Source: Oscillospiraceae bacterium
GTDB taxonomy: Bacteria > Bacillota > Clostridia > Oscillospirales > CAG-272
Direction: 5' to 3'
Length of the DNA: 37,814 nucleotides
Assembly (NCBI GenBank): GCA_015064025.1
Contig: SVSZ01000009.1
Span: 1 to 37,814 of the forward strand
In this document: piece by piece, positions 8,677-32,594 of the stretch
How positions within the stretch are numbered: position 1 is the first letter of the stretch
Layout of the letters: each line of letters opens with the position of its first letter
Program-made: the position numbers and the translations under genes
Notes under the pieces: generated by a model
Told to the model about the DNA's origin: nothing
Databases searched by the model: none
What the model saw: only the letters and a program-made list of their open reading frames with translations

Positions 8677-8845
8677 CATACTGTGACATCTGACAAAAGG
8701 CAGTCTTGGATGACGCCGTAAGACGAAGGATTCATACGCTTTTCCTTTTTGAATGTTAAATGTTCGCAAAATGCACACAAGGGTTCTTCTTGTGCGGTGA
8801 ATATCTATTCAATCCTACAAAATTGACAAAATTTCATCAAATCAC

Positions 8846-10073: not shown

Positions 10074-10084
10074 GGGGGGGGGGG
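10074..10084 (+). repeat. Run of eleven G residues
   Basis: An uninterrupted G11 tract between the gap terminator and the regulatory region of the large secreted protein gene, about 20-30 bases upstream of the first putative activator half-site. It could vary in length by slippage or could be a sequencing artefact. Confidence 0.8.
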
Positions 10085-10112
10085 TACTGTGAATTGTATA
10101 CAATTGACATAT

Positions 10113-10181
10113 AAAAAGTTAGAAAATGCAATAAAAAGAGTAAAAAATGCAATGGACACACAAAAAATAATATGGTATACT
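10113..10181 (+). promoter_or_regulatory. Promoter with two AraC-type half-sites
   Basis: Two similar A-rich half-sites, 10113-10129 and 10133-10150, each end in AAAATGC with the ATGC boxes exactly 21 bases apart. Two bases after the second comes a poor -35 (TGGACA, 10153-10158), a 17-base spacer, and a strong extended -10 (TGG then TATACT at 10176-10181). The same arrangement occurs upstream of the oxidoreductase operon on the other strand (27201-27269). A weak -35 touching an activator site is typical of class II AraC-type activation; this is inference. Transcription should start near 10188. Confidence 0.7.
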
Positions 10182-10236
10182 ATAGCCACTTCCAATAGTT
10201 TACAAATGATTATAACTAATGAAGGAGAACGCTATC

Positions 10237-13200
10237 ATGAAAAAAACAAGAAGAATCGTTTCATTCATTCTTTCCCTTGTGATGCTCCTGCCGCTGATCG
10301 CGATTGCGGTCACGGCTGAGGAGACGGACATCCTCTGGGAGGGAGAGAACTTTGACGCGGGTACGTGGAGCAATATGAACTCGTGGCCCGTGAGCGCCGA
10401 GATCGTATCGAAGAGCGCGCTCAATCCGTCGGACAAGGCGCTCAAGATCGATATCAAGGGCGTGGCGGCAGCCTCCAGAACCGCGCCGTACTATGCGTGG
10501 GGCAGTGACAGCAATATTTATGAGATCACCGATTACTCGTATGAGGCGGCAACCAACACCGTCTCGGGTAATTTCAGTGACGGCACTGCCACCCATGCCA
10601 TCAGCGGCACGCTGGATACGGGTGTGGCGGCGACCTGCGATGCGGGAACCTACTACGTCTATACCCCTGATATGGTGGACGCAAGAACCGGTTACAACAA
10701 CGTGGCAAAGGCTGCGGTCGTAAGGAACCCCTTGATCAGTGCGACCACCGCGAACAAGGCGGTTTTCCAGTATAAGATTTGGTTTGAAGAGGGCTCCAAG
10801 GGCATTTTTGCAAGCCGTGCTTATACGAGCGGCGGAAAGTACGTTGAATTTTTCGGTATGAAGGCAACCGGCACTTCCGTCACCCTTCAGCAGCATGAGA
10901 ATGCGCAGATCGCCGCAGGCTCTGCCGTCACCTTTAAGACGGGCGAGTGGCACACGATCAGCGTGGCATTGGATTTTTATGATCGTTGGTATGATGTTTA
11001 TCTGGACGGCGTTTATGCATTCAGTGCCATCAACAACAGCGGAGATCTCTTTGAGCTTCCCATTCCTTTTGATATCGGCGCCACTAAGTGGAACCTGATT
11101 CAGATCAACCGTCGCAATACGTCCGCCGCGTCTCTTGCGGGTTCTCTGATGATTGATGACGTCTGCATTTATGATGGCAGTATCCTAGATGCCTTCACTC
11201 CGGCGCCCGCCATCGAGGTGACCGATGATTTTGAATCCTATACGGTGGATAAGATCACGAAGACAGAGGGCTACAATCTCTCGGACAGCGGAAACATCGT
11301 CGCTTATAACAAGGTTTTGTCGGAGAACCTCACGGGCAGCTCCAACAAGTTTGTGCGTGTGCCGCTTCTTTACGACGGCACGGGCTCCAACGTCATCGGC
11401 ACTGCGGGGTACACAAACTACGATAAAACCCTGACTTTGGCACATCCCCAGATGACCAAGGAAAACGGTGAGTATGCCGTGTTCGAGATCGATTACCGCC
11501 ACAATGCGGAGGCGAACTGCACCAACGGCACCATTGAAACCCAGCTCTACACATTCAATTTTGATATGGAGCTTTCCAAAGGTGCAGCGATCGCGGGAAC
11601 CGCGGTCACCAACACCGTTCACAATAAGTCCGGCATCTATCTCTCCCTCTTCACCATCAACCTCAAGGACGGTTCCCTTGTGGGTCATGATTCGAGCATG
11701 ACAAAGACGGGCGCCGCGGGTTTGAAGGAAAACGAGTGGAATACGATTCGCTACGTTCTGAACCTGAGGGACACCTCCTACTATCTCTACGTCAACGGAA
11801 TCCTTTACGGCTATGACGACGCGATGGAGTCCGTCACCGCCTCCGGCTGGAGTAAGTGCACCAACGTATCCAATCTCAAGATTCCGGCAAATAATCTTAT
11901 CATTTCCAAGGTCAACAAGAAGGACAACACGGGAAATACCTGCTATAATAAGGTTGGAGAGGCAAATGAGACCTATTCCAACGTTAACTATATTGACGTG
12001 GATAACGTAACTTTTAGTTCTACCAATGAAGCGCCTGTGATCGTTCTTCCTCCCGTCACGGCGGAGAATGACTTTGAAGGGTATTCGGATCAGCAGACCT
12101 TAACAACAAGTAACGGCTTTGCGGCGGCACCTCCTTACAATATGGTGCTTTCCGAGACTGTGGATGGCAAGGACAACAAATTTGTCCGCGTGCCCTTCCT
12201 TTACGGTGGCGACAGCCCGACGTCCGGCACCACGAACCGCGACAAGTCGTTTTACTTGAAGCATAGCATGTTTAACAAAGACAACGGACGCTACATGATC
12301 TATGAGGCGGATTTCCGACGCAATGCATCGGCGCAGAAAGCGGTCGTTCAATTGCAGCTTGCCTCTCTTAAGTTCGAAGACGCATCCGGAACGCAGTATA
12401 ACGGAAGTTATCTGGCGCTCTTCAGCATCAATCTTCAAACGGGTGATATCACGGGACACAACTCGAGCATGACCAAGACAGGTGCCGAGGGCTTGACTGC
12501 GAACGAGTGGACGCGTGTGAAGTTCGTTCTCGATCTTGAAAATCCTTCCTACCGTATTTATGTTAACGGTGTGACGTACGGATACGGAGAAGGGATGCAA
12601 GGCATGTATTACAGCGCCAACGATTGGGTTAGGGTGAACAATATAAAGAATATTGAGGCTTCAGTGAACAGCCTGATTGTCGCAAAGGTAGACAAGGACA
12701 ACACCGTTACCGCAGCGTATACCAAGGCTTCCGATGCGGATGCTACGTATTCCAACGTCAACTACGTTGACCTTGATAATTTGAATCTGATCACCTCGGA
12801 TACGATGCCTCCCATCGTTTTCCCTCCCATCGAGGCAGAGGAAGGCTTTGAAAGCGGTACGGCGGGATCTGCGCTGTCTTCCTCGAATTCTTCCACCAAC
12901 ACCGCCTATAACAAGGTGCTATCCGAAACCGTGGGAGAGGGTGCAAACCAATTCCTCCGCGTGCCGCTTCTCTACGACGGAACCGGCGATAATACGATAT
13001 CCACCGGTGGTTATACCAACTACGACAAGACCGTAACGATGAAGCATGCCACGATCTCCACCGATACCGGTAAGTATGCGGTATTCACCGTGGATTACCG
13101 CCCGCATGCCGAAGCGAACGCTGCCACGGGTACGATTGAGATCCAGATCAACGGCTACAAGTTTGACGCACTGGTCGAGAACGGTTCGCAAAAGTCGGTA

Positions 13201-15105
13201 GAGCCTCGGAAGTATGAATATTCTGATCTTGCAGAGGATGAAAAGGGTGTAACGGGTATCTTTCTCAAGCTGTTTGACATCAATCTGGCAACGGGTGAAT
13301 TGACAGGCAATTCCTCCGACAGCCTGAAAAAGACAGGCGCTAAGGGCTTGAATCTGGATGAGTGGAATACCATTCAGTTTGTCATGAATCTGGAGGATTC
13401 CTCCTCGTGCCTGTACGTCAACGGTTACCTCTATGGCGTCAGTGAAAAGATGCATGCTACCTCCAACGGTTGGTATTATTATACGAATCCTTCCAATATC
13501 GTCTTTACGAGCAACTGTCTCTTTGCGGCAAAGGTCAATAAGAAGGATGAGGCGTTCAATAAGCTTGGGGAAGCTGACGAAACCTATTCCAACGTCAACT
13601 ATATTGATATCGACAACATTTCCATTGCTTCCGCGACCGAAAAGGATATCACCGTGCTTGATCCTGTCAACGAGGACGGCGGTGTTCTGATGTACGTGGA
13701 GGTCAAAGGAGAGAAGGTTGCAAATGAGTATTTGTATCTGACAAAGGATATTGAATACGAGGTGTCTTACTTTGATCCCAATGAAATTGCGTACGACGGT
13801 ATCATTTCCACCGTTGATAAGTCCTCCATTCGTCTGAAAGGCCAAGCGGGACTTCGCTTTGCGACCGAGATCGTAGACATGGAAGCATTCGATGCGCTGT
13901 TCGCTCTTGAGGGTGAGGATTATAAGGATGTGACGTTCGGTACGCTGATCGTTCCCACGTCTTACGTCAGCGACATTGACTTTACTGTGGATTCGCTTAA
14001 GATAGCCGGAAGACAGTATCTTGAAGTGGAAGCCAATTACGGTCACTACTACGCCTTTGACAACGATGATAGCACCACGCACTTTGTCGGCTCGATCGTC
14101 AACCTGAGATCCGGTAACGTCAACCGTCCCTTCTCGGCGATCGGTTATATCAAGATCACTCTCTGGGGCGGACAGGAGTACTATTTCTATTCTTCCGACG
14201 AGAATTCTTCCCTCAAGTATCATACTGCAAACGTGCAGGAGATTGCGACTTTGGCACTGAACGACAAGACCCAAACCTGGACTGAATTTGAAAAATCCAT
14301 TCTTGATACGTATGCGGAAGGTAACACTATGGACGCAACAATCGCAAACGATATGAAGGGACTTAACGTACTGGCATTCGGTGACAGCCTCTTCGGCGGT
14401 ACGATCGGTTATGATCAGGCAACGCAGTGGGTCAACAAGCTGGGTGTGGATAACGAATGGAACCTGACCAACCTCGGTATCGGCAGCATGACCGTTTCCT
14501 TGACCGAGCGTAACAATGTGTACCAATATGGCAACAAGAACTCCATGTACGATTGGATGTTCAACGAAAAGAACGATTTCCGTTGGAATTCTACCGCTAC
14601 TCCCTCCGGTACCAATCCCTTCTTCAAGACGGGCGTGTGCACGGATAACAAGGGAGACGTTGAATTGATCATACTGGAGGGCGGCTGTAACGACTACGGT
14701 ACGGCAATCTCCGCTCCCTTGGGAACCGTGGATTCTCACGATCCCGGCACCTTCCTCGGCGCTTGGAACTGCATCACGGAGAGATTGCTTGAGGAGTATG
14801 AAAATGCAACGATCGTTTTCCTCACCACGTGGAGGCTGAATCCGCAGACGAGAACTGACGATACTCTGACCTCAATCGAATTCTCCGAGAGTGTGATCAC
14901 GCTGTATGAGGAGAGATATGCAAGCAACGATCGCATTGCGCTGATCGATGCGGGTGACCCGAAGGTGTCCGGTGTCGATATGCTGGACAGCGCGTGGAGA
15001 ACCGAATACTCCACCGATTCTTATCACCTCAAGGATACCGGTATGGCTGTGATGGCAGATCACATGTTGCCGCTGCTTTGGGAGATCGTGATGAAGGCTC
15101 GTTGA
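10237..15105 (+). CDS. Secreted multidomain protein: lectin-like repeats plus SGNH/GDSL hydrolase
   Basis: This 1,622-residue protein starts with a signal peptide (residues 1-27, MKKTRR then a hydrophobic core, cleavage probably after VTA). A more divergent concanavalin/LamG-like unit (about 30-325) follows. Three clearly related units come next (about 326-605, 606-865, 866-1135), sharing the motifs FVRVPLLYDG, SSMTKTGA.GL, EW..I..VL.L, YLYVNG and TYSNVNY.D.DN. A beta-rich module with RLKGQAGLRFATEI spans about 1140-1370. The C-terminal SGNH hydrolase domain is complete: nucleophile Ser1384 in FGDSL, LGIG, Asn1485 in GGCND, and Asp1594/His1597 in DSYHLKD. It probably binds a polysaccharide and removes acyl esters outside the cell; the substrate is unknown. 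No sorting signal, dockerin or S-layer domain is seen. The start at 10237 follows GGAG; an ATG at 10219 has no site. A small peptide gene follows. Confidence 0.85.
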   Translation: MKKTRRIVSFILSLVMLLPLIAIAVTAEETDILWEGENFDAGTWSNMNSWPVSAEIVSKSALNPSDKALKIDIKGVAAASRTAPYYAWGSDSNIYEITDYSYEAATNTVSGNFSDGTATHAISGTLDTGVAATCDAGTYYVYTPDMVDARTGYNNVAKAAVVRNPLISATTANKAVFQYKIWFEEGSKGIFASRAYTSGGKYVEFFGMKATGTSVTLQQHENAQIAAGSAVTFKTGEWHTISVALDFYDRWYDVYLDGVYAFSAINNSGDLFELPIPFDIGATKWNLIQINRRNTSAASLAGSLMIDDVCIYDGSILDAFTPAPAIEVTDDFESYTVDKITKTEGYNLSDSGNIVAYNKVLSENLTGSSNKFVRVPLLYDGTGSNVIGTAGYTNYDKTLTLAHPQMTKENGEYAVFEIDYRHNAEANCTNGTIETQLYTFNFDMELSKGAAIAGTAVTNTVHNKSGIYLSLFTINLKDGSLVGHDSSMTKTGAAGLKENEWNTIRYVLNLRDTSYYLYVNGILYGYDDAMESVTASGWSKCTNVSNLKIPANNLIISKVNKKDNTGNTCYNKVGEANETYSNVNYIDVDNVTFSSTNEAPVIVLPPVTAENDFEGYSDQQTLTTSNGFAAAPPYNMVLSETVDGKDNKFVRVPFLYGGDSPTSGTTNRDKSFYLKHSMFNKDNGRYMIYEADFRRNASAQKAVVQLQLASLKFEDASGTQYNGSYLALFSINLQTGDITGHNSSMTKTGAEGLTANEWTRVKFVLDLENPSYRIYVNGVTYGYGEGMQGMYYSANDWVRVNNIKNIEASVNSLIVAKVDKDNTVTAAYTKASDADATYSNVNYVDLDNLNLITSDTMPPIVFPPIEAEEGFESGTAGSALSSSNSSTNTAYNKVLSETVGEGANQFLRVPLLYDGTGDNTISTGGYTNYDKTVTMKHATISTDTGKYAVFTVDYRPHAEANAATGTIEIQINGYKFDALVENGSQKSVEPRKYEYSDLAEDEKGVTGIFLKLFDINLATGELTGNSSDSLKKTGAKGLNLDEWNTIQFVMNLEDSSSCLYVNGYLYGVSEKMHATSNGWYYYTNPSNIVFTSNCLFAAKVNKKDEAFNKLGEADETYSNVNYIDIDNISIASATEKDITVLDPVNEDGGVLMYVEVKGEKVANEYLYLTKDIEYEVSYFDPNEIAYDGIISTVDKSSIRLKGQAGLRFATEIVDMEAFDALFALEGEDYKDVTFGTLIVPTSYVSDIDFTVDSLKIAGRQYLEVEANYGHYYAFDNDDSTTHFVGSIVNLRSGNVNRPFSAIGYIKITLWGGQEYYFYSSDENSSLKYHTANVQEIATLALNDKTQTWTEFEKSILDTYAEGNTMDATIANDMKGLNVLAFGDSLFGGTIGYDQATQWVNKLGVDNEWNLTNLGIGSMTVSLTERNNVYQYGNKNSMYDWMFNEKNDFRWNSTATPSGTNPFFKTGVCTDNKGDVELIILEGGCNDYGTAISAPLGTVDSHDPGTFLGAWNCITERLLEEYENATIVFLTTWRLNPQTRTDDTLTSIEFSESVITLYEERYASNDRIALIDAGDPKVSGVDMLDSAWRTEYSTDSYHLKDTGMAVMADHMLPLLWEIVMKAR

Positions 15106-20033: not shown

Positions 20034-21203
20034 TTACAGACTGATTTCGCGCCCCTTCACGAACACGTTTTGCATTCTGATGTCCTCGTCAAAAATAACG
20101 ATATCGGCGTCCTTGCCTGTATCAAGCGTTCCCTTGAAGGTGCAGCCGAGAAGCTTTGCAGGGGTCTCACTCGCCATCTTAACGGCATCGACCAAAGGAA
20201 TGCCTGCACCAACGACGGTGCGTACCAAACGGTCGGTCGTGGCGATGCTTCCCGCAAACGCTTGCCCACCGGGAACCCAGGCAACGTCGCGCTCGATGTA
20301 GACCTCCATACCGTTTTCCAAACTGCCGAGGATGCTCTTTGTGCCGTTGGCGGCACCTGCCGCACGCATTGCATCGGTGATGAGTGCCGTGCGGTCGGGA
20401 CCTTTGATCTTGTAGACCATTTGCAGAAGCTCGGGAGGCAGATGCATGCCGTCGGCAATGATCTCAACTGTAATATCATCGTCAAGATATGCTGCCTCAA
20501 TTGCGCCTGCAATGCGGATGCCGTTGACTCTCTCAACACTCTTCATGCAGGAATAGAAGTGTGTCATGTGGGTGTAGCCGTGACGCTTAGCATCCTGCAT
20601 CTCGCGGCAATTGACGTCGGTGTGCGCCGCGCTGAGCCAGATACCTCTCTCGGAGAGCTTGGATGCAAAAACATAGTCGGTATCTCTCTCGGGGGCGATG
20701 CTCCAGCGAACGATGTCGTCGGTCGCCTCCAAAATGCGCTCATACTCGGCAGGATCGGGATCACGGATGAACTTCGGATCCTGAGCACCCATTTGCGAAA
20801 GCGCGAAATAGGGTCCCTCCATGTGCATACCTACAAAATCCGCACCGTTGCAGCCGTTTTCCTTGACTGCCTTGTAGGAGTTGAACATTTTAATCATATC
20901 CTCAAGGGGACCGGAGGTTGCGGTGGGACAAAGAGCGGTCGTGCCGTGCTTTCCGTGGAATTCCGCAATGCCGCGGAAGGCTTCCTCGGTTCCGTCAAGA
21001 AAATCATAGCCGCCGCCACCGTGCACGTGCAGATCGATGAAGCCGGCGCTGACGTAATTCCCCTTGGCATCAATGATGCGATCGGGAGTGCCGCGGCGGT
21101 AAGCGTCTGCCTTGGAGATGATCATGCCATCCTCAAAATATACGTTCTCCTCTACGATCTGTCCGCCGCGGATCACGCGTCCATTGATAATTTGTGTCAT
21201 CAT
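20034..21203 (-). CDS. nagA: N-acetylglucosamine-6-phosphate deacetylase-like protein
   Basis: NagA enzymes remove the acetyl group from N-acetylglucosamine-6-phosphate or similar amino-sugar phosphates. The 389 residues carry the metal motif HVH (His59, His61 in GFIDLHVHGGGG), Glu129 in GMHMEGPYFA, His194 in AAHTDV, His215 in MTHFYSCM and the catalytic Asp277 in LITDAM. The loop that normally reads THLFNAM and contacts the sugar reads THFYSCM here, so the true substrate may differ. Its ATG overlaps the stop of the nagB-like gene (ATGATGA at 21198-21203), meaning coupled translation; the second ATG (21200) is an alternative start. It is the last gene of the operon that begins at 27133. Confidence 0.85.
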   Translation of the reverse strand: MMTQIINGRVIRGGQIVEENVYFEDGMIISKADAYRRGTPDRIIDAKGNYVSAGFIDLHVHGGGGYDFLDGTEEAFRGIAEFHGKHGTTALCPTATSGPLEDMIKMFNSYKAVKENGCNGADFVGMHMEGPYFALSQMGAQDPKFIRDPDPAEYERILEATDDIVRWSIAPERDTDYVFASKLSERGIWLSAAHTDVNCREMQDAKRHGYTHMTHFYSCMKSVERVNGIRIAGAIEAAYLDDDITVEIIADGMHLPPELLQMVYKIKGPDRTALITDAMRAAGAANGTKSILGSLENGMEVYIERDVAWVPGGQAFAGSIATTDRLVRTVVGAGIPLVDAVKMASETPAKLLGCTFKGTLDTGKDADIVIFDEDIRMQNVFVKGREISL

Positions 21204-21964
21204 AACAGTTTGGCGCCGCTATCGGGATCGCAATACATGGTTGCGTTGTTGTGCAGACGCATGATGGTTGCGGGAACGTCTGCGCTGATCTTGGCGTTTA
21301 CGGTATTGTACACTGCCTCTGCCTTGGTAGCCGCGGGAACGGTACAGATCATGACCTTTGCGGCGGTAAGAGAGGGAATGGTAAGCGTGAACGCATGTGT
21401 AGGAACGTCATCGATGGTCGGGAAGCAACCGTCGTGTACCTGCTGGTTGCGGCAGGTCTCATCAAGAGGCACGAGCTTTACCTTTTTGGGATCGTTGAAG
21501 TCCGCAACCCAAGGATCGTTGAAAGCAATGTGTGCATTTTCACCGATGCCAAGGAATACGATATCGGTCGGATATTTTGTGAGAAGCTCACCGTATCTTT
21601 CGCACTCTGCCTCGGGATCGGGATTTGCACCGTTTACGTAGTGTACTTCACCAAAGGGAAGCTTTCCGAATACGTGCTCGTAAAGATAGTAGCCGAAGCT
21701 CTGCTCCTTTTCCTTGGGGAAGCCTACGTATTCATCCATATGGAACGCACGGCAACGGGTCCAGTCGATTCCCTCTTCCTTGAAGAGCGCAGCCAACGTG
21801 TCGTTCTGCGAGGGAGCTGCGGCAAAAATAATATTGACCCACTCCTGTGTCTTTTGAAGCTCGCGGATCGCCTCAGCGCCCTTGCGTGCCGCATCCTTGC
21901 CCGCTTCTGCGCGATTTTCGTAAATCTTAACGGATAATTTATCCTTAATAACCTCTTTCAGCAT
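21200..21964 (-). CDS. nagB: Glucosamine-6-phosphate deaminase-like protein (divergent)
   Basis: NagB isomerises and deaminates glucosamine-6-phosphate to fructose-6-phosphate and ammonia. This 254-residue protein has the fold and the catalytic Asp77 in HMDEY. The core motif, normally GVGxDGHIAFNEP, reads GIGENAHIAFNDP: the active-site His145 is kept, but the Asp corresponding to E. coli Asp141 is Asn143 and Glu148 is Asp150. The phosphate loop, normally GST-like, reads AAAPSQ. These changes suggest a different amino-sugar phosphate or an altered reaction. The ATG at 21964 has AAAGGA upstream. The stop overlaps the start of the nagA-like gene, so the two are made together. It lies 82 bases after the previous operon gene, with a hairpin between. 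Confidence 0.82.
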   Translation of the reverse strand: MLKEVIKDKLSVKIYENRAEAGKDAARKGAEAIRELQKTQEWVNIIFAAAPSQNDTLAALFKEEGIDWTRCRAFHMDEYVGFPKEKEQSFGYYLYEHVFGKLPFGEVHYVNGANPDPEAECERYGELLTKYPTDIVFLGIGENAHIAFNDPWVADFNDPKKVKLVPLDETCRNQQVHDGCFPTIDDVPTHAFTLTIPSLTAAKVMICTVPAATKAEAVYNTVNAKISADVPATIMRLHNNATMYCDPDSGAKLL

Positions 21965-22046: not shown

Positions 22047-22913
22047 TTATACGGGTGTCGCAACGACCTTTTCGCTCTTGCCTGACTTCATGGAAGCGTC
22101 CAGTGCATTGAGGATGAATACAGGACGGATGAATTCGTCATAGGTCTCCTTCATGGGAGCGCCCGTAAGAAGGGCGTACATATCGTCCAACTCACATTCA
22201 AAGGGGTAAGGGGTGAATGCAAATTTATCAGCCTTCAGCCCCTTGCCGCCGAATACGGTTGCATGGTAATACCAGCCCTCGCTTGTGTAAGAGCCTGTGA
22301 TGGGATAGTCCTTATATTTTGCTACGAATGCCACCTCTTTATCACAGGAGATCGCCGCAACCTCTTCCACGTCGTTGCCGAAGATCGTTGTCATCATTTG
22401 TACGAGGTGCTGGGAATAGAAGTAAAATCCACCGTAGGCGGGGTCGATAGACAGGGGGGCGGCGACGTTTCCGCCACGAACGGTGCCGTACATCCCTTCC
22501 GCGATCTCTTTTGCCATCTGTGTGACACCGGGAAGATACTTGCAGGAGGAGCCGCCGCAAAGACGAACGCCGTACTTCTTGGCTTCTCTCATGAATTCGA
22601 CCGCCTCAGCGCCGTCACAGGTGATGGGCTTGTCGATGAACATCGGAATGCCCGATGCAAGATAGGGCTTTGCGTACTTGTAGTGATTGTCGCCGTGACG
22701 CGCAGTGATCATGATACCGTCTACCTTGCCTACGAGCTCATCATAGCTTTCCATGATGTGAACGCCGAATTCGGCGTTGAGCTTCTTGCAGGACTCCTCT
22801 TCATCGGAGTAAACGCCGATGACGGTCATGTCGGGGTGTCTGCCGTTTTTGAGCTGGTTTAAAAAGCTGTTTGCATGTGAATTTTCGCAGCCGAGAATTG
22901 CAACCTTAAACAT
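22047..22913 (-). CDS. Gfo/Idh/MocA family oxidoreductase, short divergent member
   Basis: The 288-residue protein has the N-terminal Rossmann start MFKVAILGCENSHANSF and the family motif FIDKPIT, where the lysine is the conserved catalytic one (usually EKP). The Rossmann glycine pattern is unusual (GCENSHA instead of GxGxxG/A), and the C-terminal half is shorter than in the three paralogs upstream in the same operon. YGGFYFYSQHLVQMM contains the likely catalytic His. It could be an NAD(P)-dependent oxidoreductase or have lost tight cofactor binding. It starts 15 bases after the preceding paralog's stop, with GGAG upstream. Probable role: one redox step, or recognition, of the same sugar derivative. 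Confidence 0.85.
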   Translation of the reverse strand: MFKVAILGCENSHANSFLNQLKNGRHPDMTVIGVYSDEEESCKKLNAEFGVHIMESYDELVGKVDGIMITARHGDNHYKYAKPYLASGIPMFIDKPITCDGAEAVEFMREAKKYGVRLCGGSSCKYLPGVTQMAKEIAEGMYGTVRGGNVAAPLSIDPAYGGFYFYSQHLVQMMTTIFGNDVEEVAAISCDKEVAFVAKYKDYPITGSYTSEGWYYHATVFGGKGLKADKFAFTPYPFECELDDMYALLTGAPMKETYDEFIRPVFILNALDASMKSGKSEKVVATPV

Positions 22914-24036: not shown

Positions 24037-25110
24037 TCAGTACTTCACGGACAGAGGATTCTGTGCGTGTACCGCCTCGATGATCTCAATAACCTTTGCT
24101 GCCTTTTCTGCGGTGACGTACAGAGGGGCACCGTTGACCAGCGTATCGTACAGCTTTTTATAGTAGATGTCGCATGCGGTGGAGAATCTGCTTCCGATGG
24201 CTGTAACAGTCTCCTCATGGAAAGGAAGCGTTTCGGAGCAGTACATCGGGTATCCGGTCTCGGGCTTGCGCAAGGGCTCCTCGGTTACGGGACGTGGCTC
24301 AAGCTCGCTGTCGACGATGTACTTCATCTCGATCTCACCGCTTTCATTGCTCGAGAGTGTACCGCGGTCGCCGAGAATCTTGAATTGTCTTGCAGGGTAT
24401 GCGTCGGCAGAGTTGACCTCGATATCGACGATCGGTTTGCCGGGTGCGGTGATGATGATCTTTGCCATATCGTTTGCATCTCCGCTGGTCAAAGCTCTGT
24501 CGAGGTGAGAGTAGACGACCTTTGCGTCGGGATCCCAGCCAAGAAAATCCAAAGCCATCCCGATGGGGTGGGGAGCTGTGTTATACACGCCGCCCGCGCA
24601 ATGGTTCTGCAGAGTCTGCCAGTCCCAACGGCGGGAGAAGCCGCTCCAGCACAGGTTGATCTGCTTGATGTTACCAAGCTTTCCCGTGGGGAGGAGCTCA
24701 CGGATGACGTTGACGGCGGGGCTATAGAGAGATTGATGGAATGCGGTGATCAGCACGCCGTGCTTCTTGGCAGTGTTGATCAGATCCATTGATTCGTAAT
24801 AGGTTTTTGCAAAGGGCTTTTCGTTGAGTACGTTGTAGCCGTGCTCAAGACAGTCCTTTGCGATCTCGTAGTGCTGCTGCGAGAAGGATGCGTTGACGAT
24901 GAGGTCAATGTCCTTTCTGTTAAACAGTTCTCGGTAGTCCTCGTAAGCGTCACATCCGAAATCCTTCTTGCCGCGCTCGCGGCGATCTGCGATCGCATCG
25001 ACTACGGCAACGACCTCAAAGCGGTCGTTGTCGGGGGAGAGAAAATACGCGCCGTGGATGTCACGACCGCTTCGCCCCTGACCGATGATAGCAACTCTCA
25101 ATTTTTTCAT
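24037..25110 (-). CDS. Gfo/Idh/MocA family oxidoreductase (paralog A)
   Basis: A 357-residue member with IIGQGRSGRDIHGAYFLS, NEKPFAK and GGVYNTAPHPIG at the same positions as paralog B. Differences from B cluster around residues 130-145 (SLYSPAVNVIRELLPTGK against SIYGPTIFKIKEILESGK) and 250-270, regions that in this fold line the substrate pocket or the dimer interface; that placement is from general knowledge of the fold. It is the third gene of the operon, 30 bases after the epimerase gene. NAD(P) specificity is not clear. Cytoplasmic, with no signal peptide. Confidence 0.92.
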   Translation of the reverse strand: MKKLRVAIIGQGRSGRDIHGAYFLSPDNDRFEVVAVVDAIADRRERGKKDFGCDAYEDYRELFNRKDIDLIVNASFSQQHYEIAKDCLEHGYNVLNEKPFAKTYYESMDLINTAKKHGVLITAFHQSLYSPAVNVIRELLPTGKLGNIKQINLCWSGFSRRWDWQTLQNHCAGGVYNTAPHPIGMALDFLGWDPDAKVVYSHLDRALTSGDANDMAKIIITAPGKPIVDIEVNSADAYPARQFKILGDRGTLSSNESGEIEMKYIVDSELEPRPVTEEPLRKPETGYPMYCSETLPFHEETVTAIGSRFSTACDIYYKKLYDTLVNGAPLYVTAEKAAKVIEIIEAVHAQNPLSVKY

Positions 25111-25140: not shown

Positions 25141-26022
25141 TCAAGCCTTTACAACAGGCAGCTCGGAAATCTTTTTCATATACTTGAAGGACGCTTCGAT
25201 TGCGTTGAGACAATCCTCAGCTCCCTCGAACTCAAGGGTGAAGCCTTCCTCGTAGCCTGCCCGACGAAGCTTTTGGAGTGCTTCGATCACGGGAACAACG
25301 CCGTGTCCCAAAATCGTGCCGCGCAGACCGTTGCCAAAACGGTTGAAGAAGAGCCCCTCGGGAAGGATCTCCTTTTCGCCCTTTTTGAAATAGAGAAAGT
25401 CCTTGACGTGCACGTGCATGACGTAGGGCATCGCGCGGTCGATCGCCATCAGCGGATCGACGTCTGCGCAGTAGAAGTTTCCAATATCGACCAGCCAGCC
25501 ATAGTTGCTGTCACCGACGGCATTGAATACCGCTTCCATGCGTTCCGGCTCCTGGAAGACCATTCCGTGATTTTCCGAGCAGGTTCTGATGCCCTTTTCT
25601 TTTGCGTAGAGTGTGACCTCGCGGATGATGGGAGCGACGTAGGGGACGGAATCCTCCCATGTCTTTCCCTCGGGAATGGAGAAGCCGACGTCATGACGCA
25701 TTATGGTGACACCGTACGCCTCTGCCACGTCAACCTGTCCCTTCAGTTCTTTGATCCACTTGCTCTGTGCCTCTTCGCTCCACTGACCGGCTGTTAAGTT
25801 GGCACCGACGGTGTATGCTCCGATCGGAAGTCCGATTCCTTCGCAGTAAGCGCGCAATTCACGTGCACGGGCGACGGGATCGTCATAGCCCTTGACTGAG
25901 TCTTGCGTGAAATCGATGAAGTCAAAGCCGATTTTTTTTGTCAGATCGCAGATGTCTTCCATCGAGCATCCCGTAGCTTTCACATATTTTGAAAAGCTGT
26001 AATTGCTGATTCCCAGTCTCAT
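25141..26022 (-). CDS. Sugar phosphate isomerase/epimerase family protein
   Basis: A 293-residue xylose-isomerase-like TIM-barrel protein. Probable metal ligands are Glu150 in CSENHG, Asp179 in LVDIGNF, His205 in HVHVKD and Glu264 in FTLEFEG, in the order typical of the family. Such proteins act as keto-sugar epimerases, inosose isomerases/dehydratases, or the lyase partner in oxidation-elimination glycoside cleavage, and are classically found with Gfo/Idh/MocA oxidoreductases, as here: it lies between two of them in the operon (31 and 30 base gaps). The upstream ribosome site is GGGAGAGGA. Its substrate cannot be named from sequence. Confidence 0.88.
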   Translation of the reverse strand: MRLGISNYSFSKYVKATGCSMEDICDLTKKIGFDFIDFTQDSVKGYDDPVARARELRAYCEGIGLPIGAYTVGANLTAGQWSEEAQSKWIKELKGQVDVAEAYGVTIMRHDVGFSIPEGKTWEDSVPYVAPIIREVTLYAKEKGIRTCSENHGMVFQEPERMEAVFNAVGDSNYGWLVDIGNFYCADVDPLMAIDRAMPYVMHVHVKDFLYFKKGEKEILPEGLFFNRFGNGLRGTILGHGVVPVIEALQKLRRAGYEEGFTLEFEGAEDCLNAIEASFKYMKKISELPVVKA

Positions 26023-26053: not shown

Positions 26054-27133
26054 TCAATACTTTACCGGCAGAGGATTCTGTGCGTGTACAGCCTCGATGA
26101 TCTCGATGACCTTGGTTGCCTTTTCGGGGGTAACGTCCAGAGGCTTTCCAAGCATGATGGAATCGTAGATCATGTGATAGTACATGGAGGAGCCGGTGCT
26201 GAATACGTCTCCCTCTGCCGCGAGCTCTTCCTCGTGGAAGTTGAGCTTCTCGGAGCAGTATGCGGGATAGCCGTTCTCGGGCTTGCGGAGTGCGCCGATC
26301 ACGACGGGACGTGCCTCAAGCTCCTCGGGAATAATGTACTTGACCTTGACAGTGTTGGCGAAGGGACCCGTTGCGATGGTTCCCTTGGTTCCGAAAATTT
26401 TGAAGGGCTCGCCCTTAAAGCCGTCATTGTTGTTGCATTCGATGTCAATGAGGGGCTTGCCGGGGGCGGTGATGAGGATCTTCGCGAAGTCGTTTGCGTC
26501 GCCGCTGTTGAACTCGGTCATGCCGAGATAGCTGTACTGTACCTTTGCGGCGGGATCCCAATCGATCAGATCGAGACCGACACCGATCGCGTGGGGGGTG
26601 GTGTTATAAACGCCGCCTGCGCAGAAGGACTGCAGGGTCTGCCAGTCCCAACGGCGGGAAAATCCGGAATAGTTCATGCTGATCTGAAGGACGTCGCCAA
26701 TCTTACCTGTTGCGAGGACCTCCTTGAGCTTGAGCACGGGAGGTGCGTAGAGGGACTGATGGAAAGCAGTTACGGTGACACCGTTCTTCTTTGCGGTGTT
26801 GATCAGATCCATTGCCTCGTAATAGGTCTTTGCAAAGGGTTTCTCGTTGAGGACGTTGTAGCCGTGCTCAAGGCAATCCTTCGCGATCGCATAATGCATG
26901 TGAGAGTAGGATGCGTTGACGATGAGGTCAATATCCTTTCTATCGAAGAGCTCTCTGTAATCGGCATAGCCCTCACAGCCAAACTCCTTCATGCCTCTTT
27001 CTCTGCGGTCTGCGAGCTCGTCCACGATTGCGACGACTTCACAAATGTCATTGTTTTCGGAGAGGAAGAATGCGCCGTGAATGTCACGACCGCTGCGTCC
27101 CTGACCGATGATGGCAACTCTCATTTTTTTCAT
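26054..27133 (-). CDS. Gfo/Idh/MocA family oxidoreductase (paralog C, first operon gene)
   Basis: A 359-residue oxidoreductase related to paralogs A and B but more distant (roughly three residues in five by eye). Motifs are IIGQGRSGRDIHGAFFLS, NEKPFAK and GGVYNTTPHAIG; again Asn replaces the usual Asp of the catalytic region. The ATG at 27133 follows AGGAGGG by nine bases and gives the same N-terminus as the paralogs; the longer frame to 27196 would start inside the leader and is rejected. It is the first gene after the regulated promoter at 27201-27229. Conserved motifs imply an NAD(P)-dependent redox step on a sugar. Confidence 0.92.
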   Translation of the reverse strand: MKKMRVAIIGQGRSGRDIHGAFFLSENNDICEVVAIVDELADRRERGMKEFGCEGYADYRELFDRKDIDLIVNASYSHMHYAIAKDCLEHGYNVLNEKPFAKTYYEAMDLINTAKKNGVTVTAFHQSLYAPPVLKLKEVLATGKIGDVLQISMNYSGFSRRWDWQTLQSFCAGGVYNTTPHAIGVGLDLIDWDPAAKVQYSYLGMTEFNSGDANDFAKILITAPGKPLIDIECNNNDGFKGEPFKIFGTKGTIATGPFANTVKVKYIIPEELEARPVVIGALRKPENGYPAYCSEKLNFHEEELAAEGDVFSTGSSMYYHMIYDSIMLGKPLDVTPEKATKVIEIIEAVHAQNPLPVKY

Positions 27134-27175
27134 GGTAAAACCCTCCTTGTGTATTTTCACAAAAATATCCAAAAG

Positions 27176-27191
27176 TAGGCACTTCTGCCTA
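27176..27191. promoter_or_regulatory. Palindrome at the operon transcription start
   Basis: TAGGCA and TGCCTA (27176-27181 and 27186-27191) are separated by four bases. The element falls just downstream of the predicted transcription start of the leftward operon (about 27194). It could be a repressor operator or a 5'-end mRNA hairpin. Confidence 0.5.
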
Positions 27192-27200
27192 TGCATTTTT

Positions 27201-27269
27201 AGTATATCATATTAAAATAAAAAATGAAATAGCATTTTTTACTTTTTATATTGCATTTTTCACTTTTTT
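27201..27269 (-). promoter_or_regulatory. Operon promoter with two AraC-type half-sites
   Basis: Read on the minus strand: half-site 1 (27253-27269, ending GAAAAATGC), half-site 2 (27232-27247, ending AAAAAATGC), two bases, a poor -35 TTTCAT (27224-27229), a 17-base spacer, and an extended -10 (TGA then TATACT at 27201-27206). The ATGC boxes are 21 bases apart. Half-site, -35 and -10 spacing are identical to those at 10113-10181. The divergent AraC-type gene next door is the obvious candidate regulator; binding is inferred, not shown. Confidence 0.72.
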
Positions 27270-27279
27270 GTGGTAAACT
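27251..27279 (+). promoter_or_regulatory. Promoter of the araC-type gene
   Basis: TTGCAT (27251-27256), a 17-base spacer and TAAACT (27274-27279). Half-site 1 of the divergent operon promoter overlaps this -35 and spacer, so a bound regulator could block its own transcription. Confidence 0.65.
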
Positions 27280-27332
27280 GTGATAAATGACGGAATGGGT
27301 TGCGACGATTCTGTGAAGAAGGGGTGATATTT

Positions 27333-28133
27333 TTGTTCGAGATGAAGGGGAACAGCCCTCTTTATGAGATTTCTCATAAACGTGTCGATGAGCCGAATCC
27401 GGATTCCTACGGGCGGCATATGCACAACTGCTGTGAGGTCTTGCTTTTTATCAGTGGAGATGCGAATTACAATATCGACGGACTTTTGTATCAGCCGAAG
27501 CCCTACGATCTTCTCTTGATCCCCCGTGCGACGTATCATTACCTCATTCCCATTTCTCCCTTGCCGTACGAAAACTACGTGATCGATTTTGACGGCGGGG
27601 TGGTTTCTGCTGAGCACCGGGAAAAGCTTTTTTCAAAGCCTGTGATCCTCAACATTGCCGAGGATAAGGAATTCTGCCGCTTTTTCAAGCGCTTGGATCT
27701 TTACCATGAAACCTATTCCGCACAGGATTTTTCGGTGTGCGCAAAGGCGCTGCTTCGCGAGCTGTTGATCTATTGCAGCTATCGGCTTGAGCGCTCGATG
27801 ATCGTGGAGCAGGAGCGACCTCCGCTTGTGGATACGCTCATCCGCCTGATCACGGAGAATCTTGAGCGACCTTTGGACGCAGAATTTCTGGCACACGAGC
27901 TTATGCTTTCAAAATCCTACCTTCAGAACGTATTTTCTCAATCCATGCACATAGGTCTCAAGCAGTACATCATGCAAAAAAAGATCTATGCGGCGCATAA
28001 CGATATGATAGAGGGAATGTCCTCAGGGGACGCTTGCGCCAAGTACTGCTTCAGTGACTATTCCGTGTTCTTCAGGCTTTACAAGAAAACCATGGGATAT
28101 TCCCCCAAGCAAACGGCACTTTACCGCTCATAG
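27333..28133 (+). CDS. AraC-family transcriptional regulator
   Basis: A 266-residue regulator with an N-terminal cupin-like sugar-sensing domain (GRHMHNCCEVLLFISGDANY, followed by the PYDLLLIPRATYHY segment) and a C-terminal double helix-turn-helix (about 175-262: LAHELMLSKSYLQNVFSQ, then CAKYCFSDYSVFFRLYKKT and GYSPKQ). I chose TTG at 27333 because GAAGGGGTGAT, close to the full anti-16S sequence, ends a few bases before it. The ATG at 27342 and a TTG at 27300 are alternatives. It is divergent from the oxidoreductase/nag operon and probably activates it when an amino-sugar-related ligand is present. The matching sites before the secreted SGNH gene suggest it acts there too. Confidence 0.9.
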   Translation: MFEMKGNSPLYEISHKRVDEPNPDSYGRHMHNCCEVLLFISGDANYNIDGLLYQPKPYDLLLIPRATYHYLIPISPLPYENYVIDFDGGVVSAEHREKLFSKPVILNIAEDKEFCRFFKRLDLYHETYSAQDFSVCAKALLRELLIYCSYRLERSMIVEQERPPLVDTLIRLITENLERPLDAEFLAHELMLSKSYLQNVFSQSMHIGLKQYIMQKKIYAAHNDMIEGMSSGDACAKYCFSDYSVFFRLYKKTMGYSPKQTALYRS

Positions 28134-29135: not shown

Positions 29136-31154
29136 ATGTACGGGAAGACAGACGAGCCTTTGGATATCATTATTCCGATTTCCATCGAGTTGGATTGGCC
29201 CACCTGTGAGGAGGTCGTGAAGTGTATAAGGGAGCAGAATCAAAAATACGGATTTACAAAATTTGCGCTCGCCGCCCCGGCGGGAGGATGGAGAAGCACA
29301 CATTACCCGCCGAGAGAGCATTTTATTGACCGCGCCAAGCTTTTTGCAAGCGTCAAGACAGAGCTCGCGCCGCAGGGGTTGACGCTTGGCTGGTGGATCA
29401 CTGCAACGTTGAAGTCGGGACCCTCCGAGGAATTTGTCCGTACGGTGCGCTCCGACGGGAGTGAATCCCAGATTGCCTCCTGTCCCGCAGATCCTGCATT
29501 TGAGGAGCGCTTTTGTGGGGATATTGCCGCTTTCGCGGAAATTGCGCACCCCGATTTTATCATAACCGAGGATGACTGTTCACTTCGCGCTGCCACCTTC
29601 TCCGAGGGATGCTTCTGCAAATATCATCTTGAAGCGTTTGCTCGCCGCGAGGGACGTGCGTACACCCGTGAGGAGCTTGTCAAAAGCTTTGCGCAAAGAG
29701 ATGCGGCATCATATGCCCTTCTGCGCCGTTGGCGGGCTTTGATGAAGGATACCCTTGTGGAGTTTGCCGCCGCCATGCGGCACGCGATCGATTCCGTCGC
29801 TCCCGAGATCCCGATGGGATACATGCAATCGGGCGGTGCGGATTGGGACGGCGACTGTACCGAGGCGGTTTCGCGCGCGATGGCAGGGGAGCGGCACGTG
29901 CCGTTTTCACGCCTGTACGGATGTTTCTATTGTGGCGGCGAGACAAAAAGCATCCCCCATGTGCTTTATCATCCGATCTATTGCAAGCAGCACATCGGTG
30001 AAAATTTTCGCTTTTATCACGAGTCGGATACATTCCCCCATACTGCGTTTTTTACATCTGCAGAGCAGATGCGCGCGATGATGGCTACGGTGTATTCCTA
30101 CGGCTTTCACGGTTCCACCTTCCAGACACAGCAACTTTTGGACGATCCCAACGAGGAGGAGATCTACGGACGGATGTTCAAGGAGGAGCGAGCGCGCTTT
30201 GAGGTGATCGGAGCGCTTGCTCGGCAATGCGTGCAGAAGGGAGTGCAGATCTGCTATGACCCGTTCTGGAATACCGCAGATGACACCTGCTCTACTGAGC
30301 AGCCGCTTTGGACAAGATGCGTCAGTGCCTTCGGGCTTCCTTATACGACACTTGCTTCAAATGCTGTGTTCTGGGACGTCAGACAGGCAAAATACGCAAG
30401 CGACGAGGAGGTCACGGCGGCGCTTTCGAAAAAAGCACTTTTCCTTGACGGTGACGCGGCACGTGTGCTTTGCGAACGTGGCTTTGAAAAGTATCTTGGT
30501 GTGTCGGTCGGCGCACGGGACATAGCGGACGGACGGCTCGGCTTTGATCTTGGCGCCCGCGAGCTGATCACCGAGCGGTTTTGTACCGAGGGGTGCGGGA
30601 AACATATGCCGTCGGCACATATGTATGCGGTTGGAAAAAACGGATGCCTCCTTGAAATGCGGGTGAGCGATCCCACCTGCGAGGTGATCAGCGAGCTATA
30701 TACTTTTGAGAAAAAATTTGTTTCCGTTGCGATGACGCGGTACAAAAATTCCCTCGGTGGCACCGTAACGGTTATGGGAGAGACGCTCGACGGAAATGCT
30801 TCGCAATCTCTTTTCAACTACCGCAGACAGCGCCTTTTTGGGGACGTGCTTTCCGAATGTGCAGATGAATTTGTTTTTGTTAAGGAATCCCCCTTTGTGT
30901 CCGTTGTGATGAACGAGGCGAAGGATCCGAAGGAAAGCGGATTTTTCGGGCTTCTGACCATGACCAATCTTTGTGACGGCACGGTGACGTCTCCTTTGCT
31001 TCATTTGCCACCTTGCTGGAATACGTTTGCGTCTCTTTCATTCCTTGCAAAGGATGGCTCATGGCAGGCACTTCCGTATACGCAGACGTCGGACGGCATC
31101 CGAGTGGAAATGCCCATGAAGTATTGCGATCCAATGTATCTGCGCTTTTCCTGA
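29136..31154 (+). CDS. Uncharacterised glycoside-hydrolase-like protein (TIM-barrel type)
   Basis: A 672-residue cytoplasmic protein with no signal peptide. I do not recognise a named family. The first ~350 residues look like a (beta/alpha)8 barrel of the GH-A/GH42 style: LDIIIPISIELDW, GLTLGWWITATLKSG, then PDFIITEDDCSLR followed by GCFCKYHLEAF. An acidic cluster followed by 'CFC..(C/H)L..F' is something I recall from uncharacterised clostridial glycosidases. HESDTFPH could hold a second acid. Residues about 380-500 include a trimerisation-like segment, and the C-terminus is beta-rich. Candidate catalytic residues are the Glu/Asp of ITEDD and the Glu of HESD. The start at 29136 follows GGAG by eight bases. 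It has its own promoter with unusual inverted repeats and converges with metK. Confidence 0.6.
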   Translation: MYGKTDEPLDIIIPISIELDWPTCEEVVKCIREQNQKYGFTKFALAAPAGGWRSTHYPPREHFIDRAKLFASVKTELAPQGLTLGWWITATLKSGPSEEFVRTVRSDGSESQIASCPADPAFEERFCGDIAAFAEIAHPDFIITEDDCSLRAATFSEGCFCKYHLEAFARREGRAYTREELVKSFAQRDAASYALLRRWRALMKDTLVEFAAAMRHAIDSVAPEIPMGYMQSGGADWDGDCTEAVSRAMAGERHVPFSRLYGCFYCGGETKSIPHVLYHPIYCKQHIGENFRFYHESDTFPHTAFFTSAEQMRAMMATVYSYGFHGSTFQTQQLLDDPNEEEIYGRMFKEERARFEVIGALARQCVQKGVQICYDPFWNTADDTCSTEQPLWTRCVSAFGLPYTTLASNAVFWDVRQAKYASDEEVTAALSKKALFLDGDAARVLCERGFEKYLGVSVGARDIADGRLGFDLGARELITERFCTEGCGKHMPSAHMYAVGKNGCLLEMRVSDPTCEVISELYTFEKKFVSVAMTRYKNSLGGTVTVMGETLDGNASQSLFNYRRQRLFGDVLSECADEFVFVKESPFVSVVMNEAKDPKESGFFGLLTMTNLCDGTVTSPLLHLPPCWNTFASLSFLAKDGSWQALPYTQTSDGIRVEMPMKYCDPMYLRFS

Positions 31155-32463: not shown

Positions 32464-32576
32464 AAAAAAACTCCGCATTGACGGAGCATTCGGCTCTCAT
32501 CTAACAGGATTTAGCACCTTACGGCTGCAGGTTGCTGTAACATCATCGTGCCTGTCACTACGTTACTCTCGATAAG
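32464..32576 (-). promoter_or_regulatory. SAM-I (S-box) riboswitch with intrinsic terminator
   Basis: Read on the minus strand, the leader holds the S-box landmarks in order: CTTATCGAGAG, the SAM-pocket region GACAGGCACGATGATG, CAGCAACC, AAGGTGCTAAATCC, and GATGAGAG, which pairs with the start to close P1 (32571-32576 with 32496-32501, six pairs including one G-U). A terminator stem CTCCG/CGGAG (32471-32475 with 32482-32486) and seven U residues follow (32464-32470). By analogy with known S-boxes, SAM binding ends transcription before metK. Confidence 0.93.
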
Positions 32577-32594
32577 ATATATTTGATTTTTTAT

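Follow-up and report, generated by a model that had tools for sequence, protein, structure and literature searches.

Whether one AraC-type regulator controls both the gene of a secreted SGNH hydrolase-like protein and an operon of oxidoreductase and nag genes on the opposite strand is the question raised by two similar promoters in the window, that is, the whole 37,814-nucleotide contig of an Oscillospiraceae bacterium analyzed here. The genes concerned are the following.

10237..15105, plus strand: secreted multidomain protein with a C-terminal SGNH/GDSL hydrolase domain (ORF 10219-15105; start at 10237 probable)
20034..21203, minus strand: NagA, N-acetylglucosamine-6-phosphate deacetylase (TIGR00221 246.8 bits, cut-off 225.65)
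21200..21964, minus strand: NagB-like protein (Glucosamine_iso 59.5 bits, cut-off 27)
22047..22913, minus strand: Gfo/Idh-type protein, 288 aa
22929..24002, minus strand: Gfo/Idh/MocA oxidoreductase, 67% identical to the operon's first
24037..25110, minus strand: Gfo/Idh/MocA oxidoreductase, 67% identical to the operon's first
25141..26022, minus strand: sugar isomerase/epimerase-like TIM barrel (AP_endonuc_2 86.5 bits)
26054..27133, minus strand: Gfo/Idh/MocA oxidoreductase, the operon's first gene (ORF 26054-27196)
27333..28133, plus strand: AraC-type regulator gene (ORF 27300-28133; the TTG at 27333 fits the orthologues' starts), from HTH_18, AraC_binding and an orthologue alignment

The NagB-like protein remained below the cut-offs of the NCBIfam nagB models. 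When the window was searched with Rfam, just one tRNA and a SAM riboswitch reached the gathering score, the latter at 32494-32578 (62.3 bits), upstream of an S-adenosylmethionine synthetase gene on the minus strand.

Architecture of the two promoters

The full promoter stretches compared were 10113-10183 (plus strand) for the SGNH gene and 27199-27269 (minus strand) for the operon, and their elements were located as listed here.

10119..10133, plus strand: half-site 1 of the SGNH operator, TTAGAAAATGCAATA, recovered by profiles and by a matrix not trained on it
10140..10154, plus strand: half-site 2 of the SGNH operator, GTAAAAAATGCAATG, 21 bp from half-site 1
10153..10158, plus strand: -35 of the SGNH promoter, TGGACA, 5/6 to consensus
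10176..10181, plus strand: -10 of the SGNH promoter, TATACT, with TGG before it and a 17-bp spacer
27249..27263, minus strand: half-site 1 of the operon operator, GTGAAAAATGCAATA, present in 9/9 orthologous regions
27228..27242, minus strand: half-site 2 of the operon operator, GTAAAAAATGCTATT
27224..27229, minus strand: -35 position of the operon promoter, TTTCAT, 2/6
27201..27206, minus strand: -10 of the operon promoter, TATACT, with TGA before it
27251..27256, plus strand: -35-like TTGCAT of the AraC-type gene, inside half-site 1, 17 bp from TAAACT at 27274-27279

The SGNH site (10119-10154, plus strand) consists of TTAGAAAATGCAATA, 6 bp and GTAAAAAATGCAATG, and the operon site (27263-27228, minus strand) of GTGAAAAATGCAATA, 6 bp and GTAAAAAATGCTATT. 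At both, the ATGC boxes are 21 bp apart, 2 bp separate the second from the -35 position, the spacer is 17 bp, and TATACT lies 25 bp past the second TGC; the two promoters also have AATATG(G/A)TATACT in common. A position check thus confirmed the 21-bp period, 2-bp gap, and TATACT that the original prediction had placed on the opposite strand at the operon. Its spacings hold at both loci, whereas its poor -35 describes the operon (TTTCAT, 2/6) but not the SGNH gene (TGGACA, 5/6), whose promoter scores 10 of 12 with TG ahead of the -10. Likewise, the predicted half-site ending AAAATGC is common to both loci, but the conserved half-site is longer, with a consensus of approximately RTAraAAwTGCAATA and a 21-bp period.

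TGCAATA was invariant in the first half-site of all 12 sites compared, two of which (G003 and G024) are identical rows. By position, direct half-sites with the 21-bp period were present in 12/12, the first TGC in 12/12 and the second TGC in 7/12. The five sites whose second half-site lacks TGC (CGC in G026, ACC in G024 and G003, AAC in SIG640, TAC in RGIG7700) are all among the nine that lie between an AraC-type gene and its divergent operon, which suggests a weaker constraint on half-site 2.

The exact pattern AAAATGC-N14-AAAATGC occurred in the window solely at the SGNH and operon sites. With up to 3 mismatches, there were 13 matches in the window against 5.15 expected, a number reached in 0 of 100 shuffles. 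Across the whole genome, a fuller pattern with up to 3 mismatches had five matches, against two for the reversed control pattern. The five were the two window sites, a site on another contig (C125) with the same promoter spacing, and sites on C4 and C24 that by eye have no -10 at this distance.

A 36-position matrix was then built from seven AraC-divergent sites of other genomes, with the identical G003 and G024 rows collapsed and no site of this genome included. In the window it scored the operon site at 44.4, the SGNH site at 34.7 and the third-best place at 15.5; elsewhere, it scored 42.0 at the SGNH site of the sister genome G023 and 34.8 at C125. In 5,000 dinucleotide shuffles per stretch, the highest score was 23.0 for the 197-bp SGNH intergenic region, 23.9 for the 101-bp A-rich core within it, and 22.3 for the 169-bp intergenic region at C125. 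None reached 34.7-34.8, indicating that the shared site is no by-product of A-richness. An eight-row matrix including the operon site of this genome gave 35.4 for both the SGNH and C125 sites, and 27.3 for a place on contig C39 of G032 that has no -10 at the right distance. Pattern counts, the profile searches described below, and the matrix with its shuffles all argue against a motif scattered at random A-rich sites, the outcome that the original prediction had named as contrary to it.

Distribution of the operator and the regulator in the genus

The operon site adjoins the AraC-type gene, which is divergent from the operon. Its product carries a C-terminal AraC-type double HTH (HTH_18 43.2 bits, cut-off 33.6; Pfam) and an N-terminal ligand-binding (cupin) domain (AraC_binding 35.0 bits, cut-off 21.1; Pfam). 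Orthologues (E <= 1e-115, 62-100% identity) were found in 7 of the 35 genomes of the genus, this one (G000) included, the others being G023, G012, G032, G026, G003, and G024; the next match in the genus was 30% identical. Two further orthologues came from the named MAGs SIG640 and RGIG7700, for a total of nine sites; RGIG4028 and RGIG3940 match G023 and G012 and were counted once, and a 26%-identical row was excluded as an orthologue. In the alignment, the eight other orthologues are 46-71% identical to the regulator of this genome. The operator is kept at identical spacing to TATACT in the intergenic regions of all nine. In RGIG7700, the divergent gene is a 467-aa ORF with no Pfam match, not Gfo/Idh.

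Half-site 1 also contains TTGCA(A/T) in 9/9 orthologues, at 17 bp from a hexamer on the regulator's side that agrees with TATAAT at 4-6 of 6 positions. For the hexamer opposite half-site 1, agreement with a -10 falls to 2-3 of 6 at three sites away from the AraC-type gene (SGNH, G023 SGNH, and C125; hereafter distal sites), so that a role as a -35 is probably not the reason why TGCAATA is kept at these.

The 672-aa protein encoded near the regulator gene, at 29136-31154 of the window, matched neither Pfam nor NCBIfam at E 0.001; the corresponding place in G023 has an ORF of 670 aa whose start, by eye, is similar.

To look for distal sites, two profiles were used. R1 (71 columns) was made from the nine AraC-divergent promoters alone and run on the 35 genomes; R2 (37 columns) covers the operator alone at the same nine loci, without use of the -10. 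No more than 143 or 150 first-look candidates were scored in each genome. Among the candidates scored in this genome, R1 gave 58.1 bits for the training site, 40.8 for C125:8762-8823, 29.4 for the SGNH site and then 21.2, while R2 gave 37.3, 23.8 for SGNH, 20.1 for C125 and then 14.7. In G023, a distal site precedes the SGNH orthologue (34.1 bits with R1, 30.3 with R2). The three distal sites were therefore recovered by profiles that had not been trained on distal sites, and all lie 25 bp from TATACT or TATAAT, though R2 contains no -10. Among the candidates scored in this genome, the genome-wide scan proposed originally singled out the two window sites and C125, a predicted regulon larger than first seen. 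Because R1 had a match at E <= 0.1 in 35/35 genomes, its E-values were not taken at face value, and ranks, gaps, and shuffles were used.

Among the candidates scored, R1 recognized no distal site in the incomplete assemblies (74-84%) of G012, G032, G026, G003, and G024; distal sites were seen in this genome and G023 alone. In SIG640 and RGIG7700, nothing exceeded 20 bits with R1 beyond the regulator's own site and a 23.4-bit match in SIG640 (G060:C63) in which no pair of TGC half-sites has the right spacing. In the 28 congeners without an AraC orthologue, neither R1 nor R2 recognized a site among the candidates scored, the matches of three genomes having been read. These were the best ones, in G010 (29.1, R1), G022 (28.1, R1), and G016 (23.0, R2), and none has two TGC half-sites and a -10 at the right distance; in the other 25, the best R1 scores were 22 bits or less. 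By score alone, the margins of the SGNH site are thin (29.4 against 29.1 in G010 and 28.1 in G022 with R1; 23.8 against 23.0 in G016, which has no -10, with R2), so the case for it depends on the arrangement, on the G023 orthologue, and on the shuffles.

Several candidates were rejected. The fourth of this genome, C4:30283-30310, has two AAAAATGC boxes 21 bp apart with 1 mismatch, by eye no -10 at the right distance, and 11.2 bits with R2; it adjoins an ORF on the other strand that is acyl-CoA synthetase-like by eye. R1 matches of 22-29 bits in G010, G003, G012, and G026 are without the two TGC half-sites; downstream, by eye, are a uvrB-like ORF (G010, G003) or an nrdR-like ORF (G012), and the G026 match lies at a contig end. 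The full arrangement is absent from G022:C73 (R1 28.1) and G032:C39 (R1 22.0, R2 19.1).

The SGNH orthologue of G023 is 1361 aa long, with 58% identity over residues 2-569 and 74% over 829-1628. The operator stands at the SGNH gene in both genomes of the genus with a near-full-length orthologue, and it is this, together with its presence beside the AraC gene in 9/9 orthologues, that bears out the expected conservation in relatives. No operator was found at seven further loci of this genome that encode relatives of the SGNH protein, among them four that include the SGNH part (on C70, C109, C44, and C42). The strongest relatives of the protein (E <= 1e-50) occur in five genomes, all with an AraC orthologue (5/5 inside 7/35; 6.5e-5, with kinship ignored); this co-occurrence was left out as evidence because relatedness was uncontrolled.

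The C125 site (8762-8823), on another contig of this genome, has the same distance to the -10 as the window sites and precedes genes for a 341-aa Gfo/Idh oxidoreductase, NagA (220.7 bits, slightly short of the 225.65 cut-off), and a TIM-barrel isomerase-like protein. Compared with 21 other chosen proteins (E <= 1e-5), this Gfo/Idh protein matches just its G032 orthologue (82%) and a 330-aa Gfo/Idh protein of the distant relative SIG640 (37%, 224 bits) encoded between nagB and nagA in the AraC-adjacent operon. A gene type of the SIG640 AraC operon is thus located elsewhere in this genome, under a copy of the same operator. The C125 site is present in one of three genomes: in G023, the contig ends inside the C125-type promoter, with TATATGTTATACT still visible, and in G032, the C125-type operon has another gene order and no operator. 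Directly upstream of the C125 operon is a 1073-aa ORF (L004 4895-8116) that likewise matched neither Pfam nor NCBIfam at E 0.001.

Proposed regulon and alternative explanations

The operator is shared, its spacing is the same, it is conserved beside the regulator, and profiles not trained on the distal sites recover it there. Since it is repeated before the SGNH gene and a second sugar operon and kept by relatives, the SGNH gene, the operon and the C125 genes are most likely controlled together. On the sequence evidence, it is quite probable that they belong to one AraC-type regulon with at least three promoters, whose regulator would bind and activate the operon and repress itself. The scan, the shuffles, and the conservation thus speak for the single AraC-type regulator originally proposed for both loci; binding by the product of 27333-28133, activation, and an inducer are inferred.

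The regulator would bind, probably as a dimer, two direct half-sites of ~15 bp with a spacing of 21 bp, or two helical turns, of which the downstream one reaches the -35 position. At the operon, where a -35 is nearly absent, the bound regulator would recruit RNA polymerase in the presence of an inducer that is probably derived from an amino sugar. Half-site 1 would cover the regulator's own -35, which suggests that it represses itself. Operator copies at the same distance from the -10 would put the SGNH protein and the C125 Gfo/Idh-NagA-TIM-barrel operon under the same signal. The good -35 of the SGNH gene makes activation less certain there than at the operon, and the part of the regulator may be limited to modulating a promoter that is active anyway.

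The downstream half-site lies by a weak -35 in the operon promoters of eight of nine genomes (2-3/6) and at C125 (3/6). The -35 is not weak in the operon promoter of RGIG7700 (5/6) and in both SGNH promoters (5/6). It could be that the SGNH promoter fires unaided and that the regulator represses or fine-tunes it, in which case SGNH and the operon would respond differently. Such a reading fits the -35 hexamers of the two SGNH promoters, both at 5/6 (TGGACA in this genome; TTGACT, followed by TATAAT, in G023), whereas the operon promoter has 2/6 in seven of the nine genomes. Nevertheless, we regard it as rather unlikely: the geometry to the -10, with half-site 2 beside the -35, is identical to that of the operon promoter, where activation is the natural reading, and the C125 promoter, too, has a poor -35.

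The operators could also be real but bound by one or more different AraC-type paralogues of overlapping specificity, the adjacent gene being a mere neighbor. This genome has 58 AraC-type HTH matches, the regulator included, so another member could bind, and four further relatives reach E <= 1e-5. However, the site adjoins the gene of this regulator in all nine orthologues and was not recognized in the 28 congeners that have none (by the reading of three genomes' matches). Residues of the first HTH are largely conserved across the nine orthologues but differ in the nearest paralogue, which is 31% identical to the regulator. Binding by a paralogue therefore appears improbable, and the adjacent regulator is the preferred candidate.

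Sites that are A-rich, phased by two helical turns and placed just upstream of -35 and -10 might instead be UP elements or curved DNA, alike by convergence and with no dedicated regulator; R1 does pick other A-rich promoters at 22-29 bits. A-tracts, however, need nothing like the TGCAATA found in 12/12 first half-sites, shuffled A-rich DNA stays below 24 against 34.7, and the site is linked to the presence of the AraC gene, which makes this explanation very improbable. Least credible of all is that the SGNH gene recently acquired its promoter as a chance copy of the operon's, with no regulatory role, as the location of both in one 37.8-kb contig and the common AATATG(G/A)TATACT might suggest, because G023 keeps the operator and its distance at the SGNH orthologue amid an unrelated spacer, diverged flanks and a different -10 (TATAAT), indicating an operator that is maintained rather than a copied block, and the C125 site is on another contig.

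The secreted protein and comparison with known systems

By eye, the N-terminus of the SGNH protein resembles a signal peptide. Lipase_GDSL_2 matches it at 28.0 bits (E 3.6e-6), under the Pfam cut-off of 32.9, so it is called SGNH-like and not a formal Pfam member. The GDS, GxND, and DxxHL motifs are invariant in 19 aligned SGNH domains of the family; GDS, GxND, and DxxH constitute blocks I, III, and V of SGNH/GDSL hydrolases. The esterase-like label is thus a prediction from a sub-cut-off GDSL match and invariant catalytic motifs. The predicted model of the SGNH domain has a mean pLDDT of 90.2, and a PDB sequence search with the protein gave no match at E <= 1. Very large proteins with at least one SGNH domain, sometimes in tandem, form an expanded family in the genus.

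The AraC-linked operon of SIG640 contains genes for N-acetylneuraminate lyase and a BNR sialidase-like protein, nagA and nagB, in which it is like the sialic-acid (nan) operons of gut bacteria, and it prompted such a reading here. That reading is unsupported for this genome because no N-acetylneuraminate lyase exceeds the model cut-off (best 144 bits against 281, in a genome 80% complete), in contrast to nan operons, and because the lyase does not track the regulator (2/7 genomes with it, 10/28 without).

At PBAD of E. coli, the direct-repeat period is 21 bp, the site overlaps the -35, and the araC gene is divergent and represses itself. As described for araI1/araI2, AraC occupies two adjacent half-sites upstream of the promoter, of which the downstream one brings in RNA polymerase (PMC4760080). 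The present sites are similar in their two half-sites ahead of the promoter with a 21-bp period and in the divergent regulator gene, for which self-repression is likewise proposed. They differ in half-site sequence, in a regulator that is distant (34.2 bits with the AraC NCBIfam model, cut-off 208), and in genes for amino-sugar and oxidoreductase functions, not arabinose. For AraC-family rhamnose regulators predicted in Bacillales, Bacteroides, and Enterococcus, direct repeats with 21-bp periodicity and motifs unique to each group have been described (PMC3870299); these have the repeat period in common with the present case but concern another sugar. The circuit type is therefore well known, AraC-type regulators with 21-bp direct repeats having been described already in that account. 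What is new is the operator sequence, the likely regulator, and at least three target promoters for a gut Clostridia genus known here from incomplete assemblies.

Searches mostly outside subscription journals found no literature joining an AraC-family regulator with Gfo, nagA, and nagB, or joining SGNH, AraC, Clostridia, operator, and regulon. The same held for comparative genomics of AraC-family regulons and binding motifs in Firmicutes with N-acetylglucosamine, a topic that led to PMC3870299 and to a study of Caldicellulosiruptor (PMC8579813).

The proposed regulon would tie a secreted hydrolase of uncertain substrate to a defined intracellular pathway, which makes its substrate guessable and testable. 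A much more speculative and unlikely extension is that, for one acylated glycan, it links a secreted SGNH de-acylase with amino-sugar and Gfo/Idh enzymes inside the cell, and that the SGNH branch is switched stochastically by the length of a G11 tract, its promoter being strong enough without an activator. If so, a change in tract length could switch SGNH on or off in part of the population.

This G11 tract lies at 10074-10084 of the window, 34 bp upstream of the SGNH operator; at the matching place, the G023 orthologue has G10 (L077 238-247), 45 bp upstream of the operator. Runs of at least 10 G are rare: of the 10 genomes searched, 5 have none, and this genome and G023 have two each. The other one in this genome, a G12 tract (L161 1501-1512; G000:C56:22115-22126), lies ~80 bp upstream of an ORF with a secretion-signal-like start by eye; those of G026, G009, and G030 are not consistently beside secretion-signal genes. 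Between the G11 tract and the SGNH operator, positions 10092-10105 hold the palindrome AATTGTATACAATT, which is partly kept in G023.
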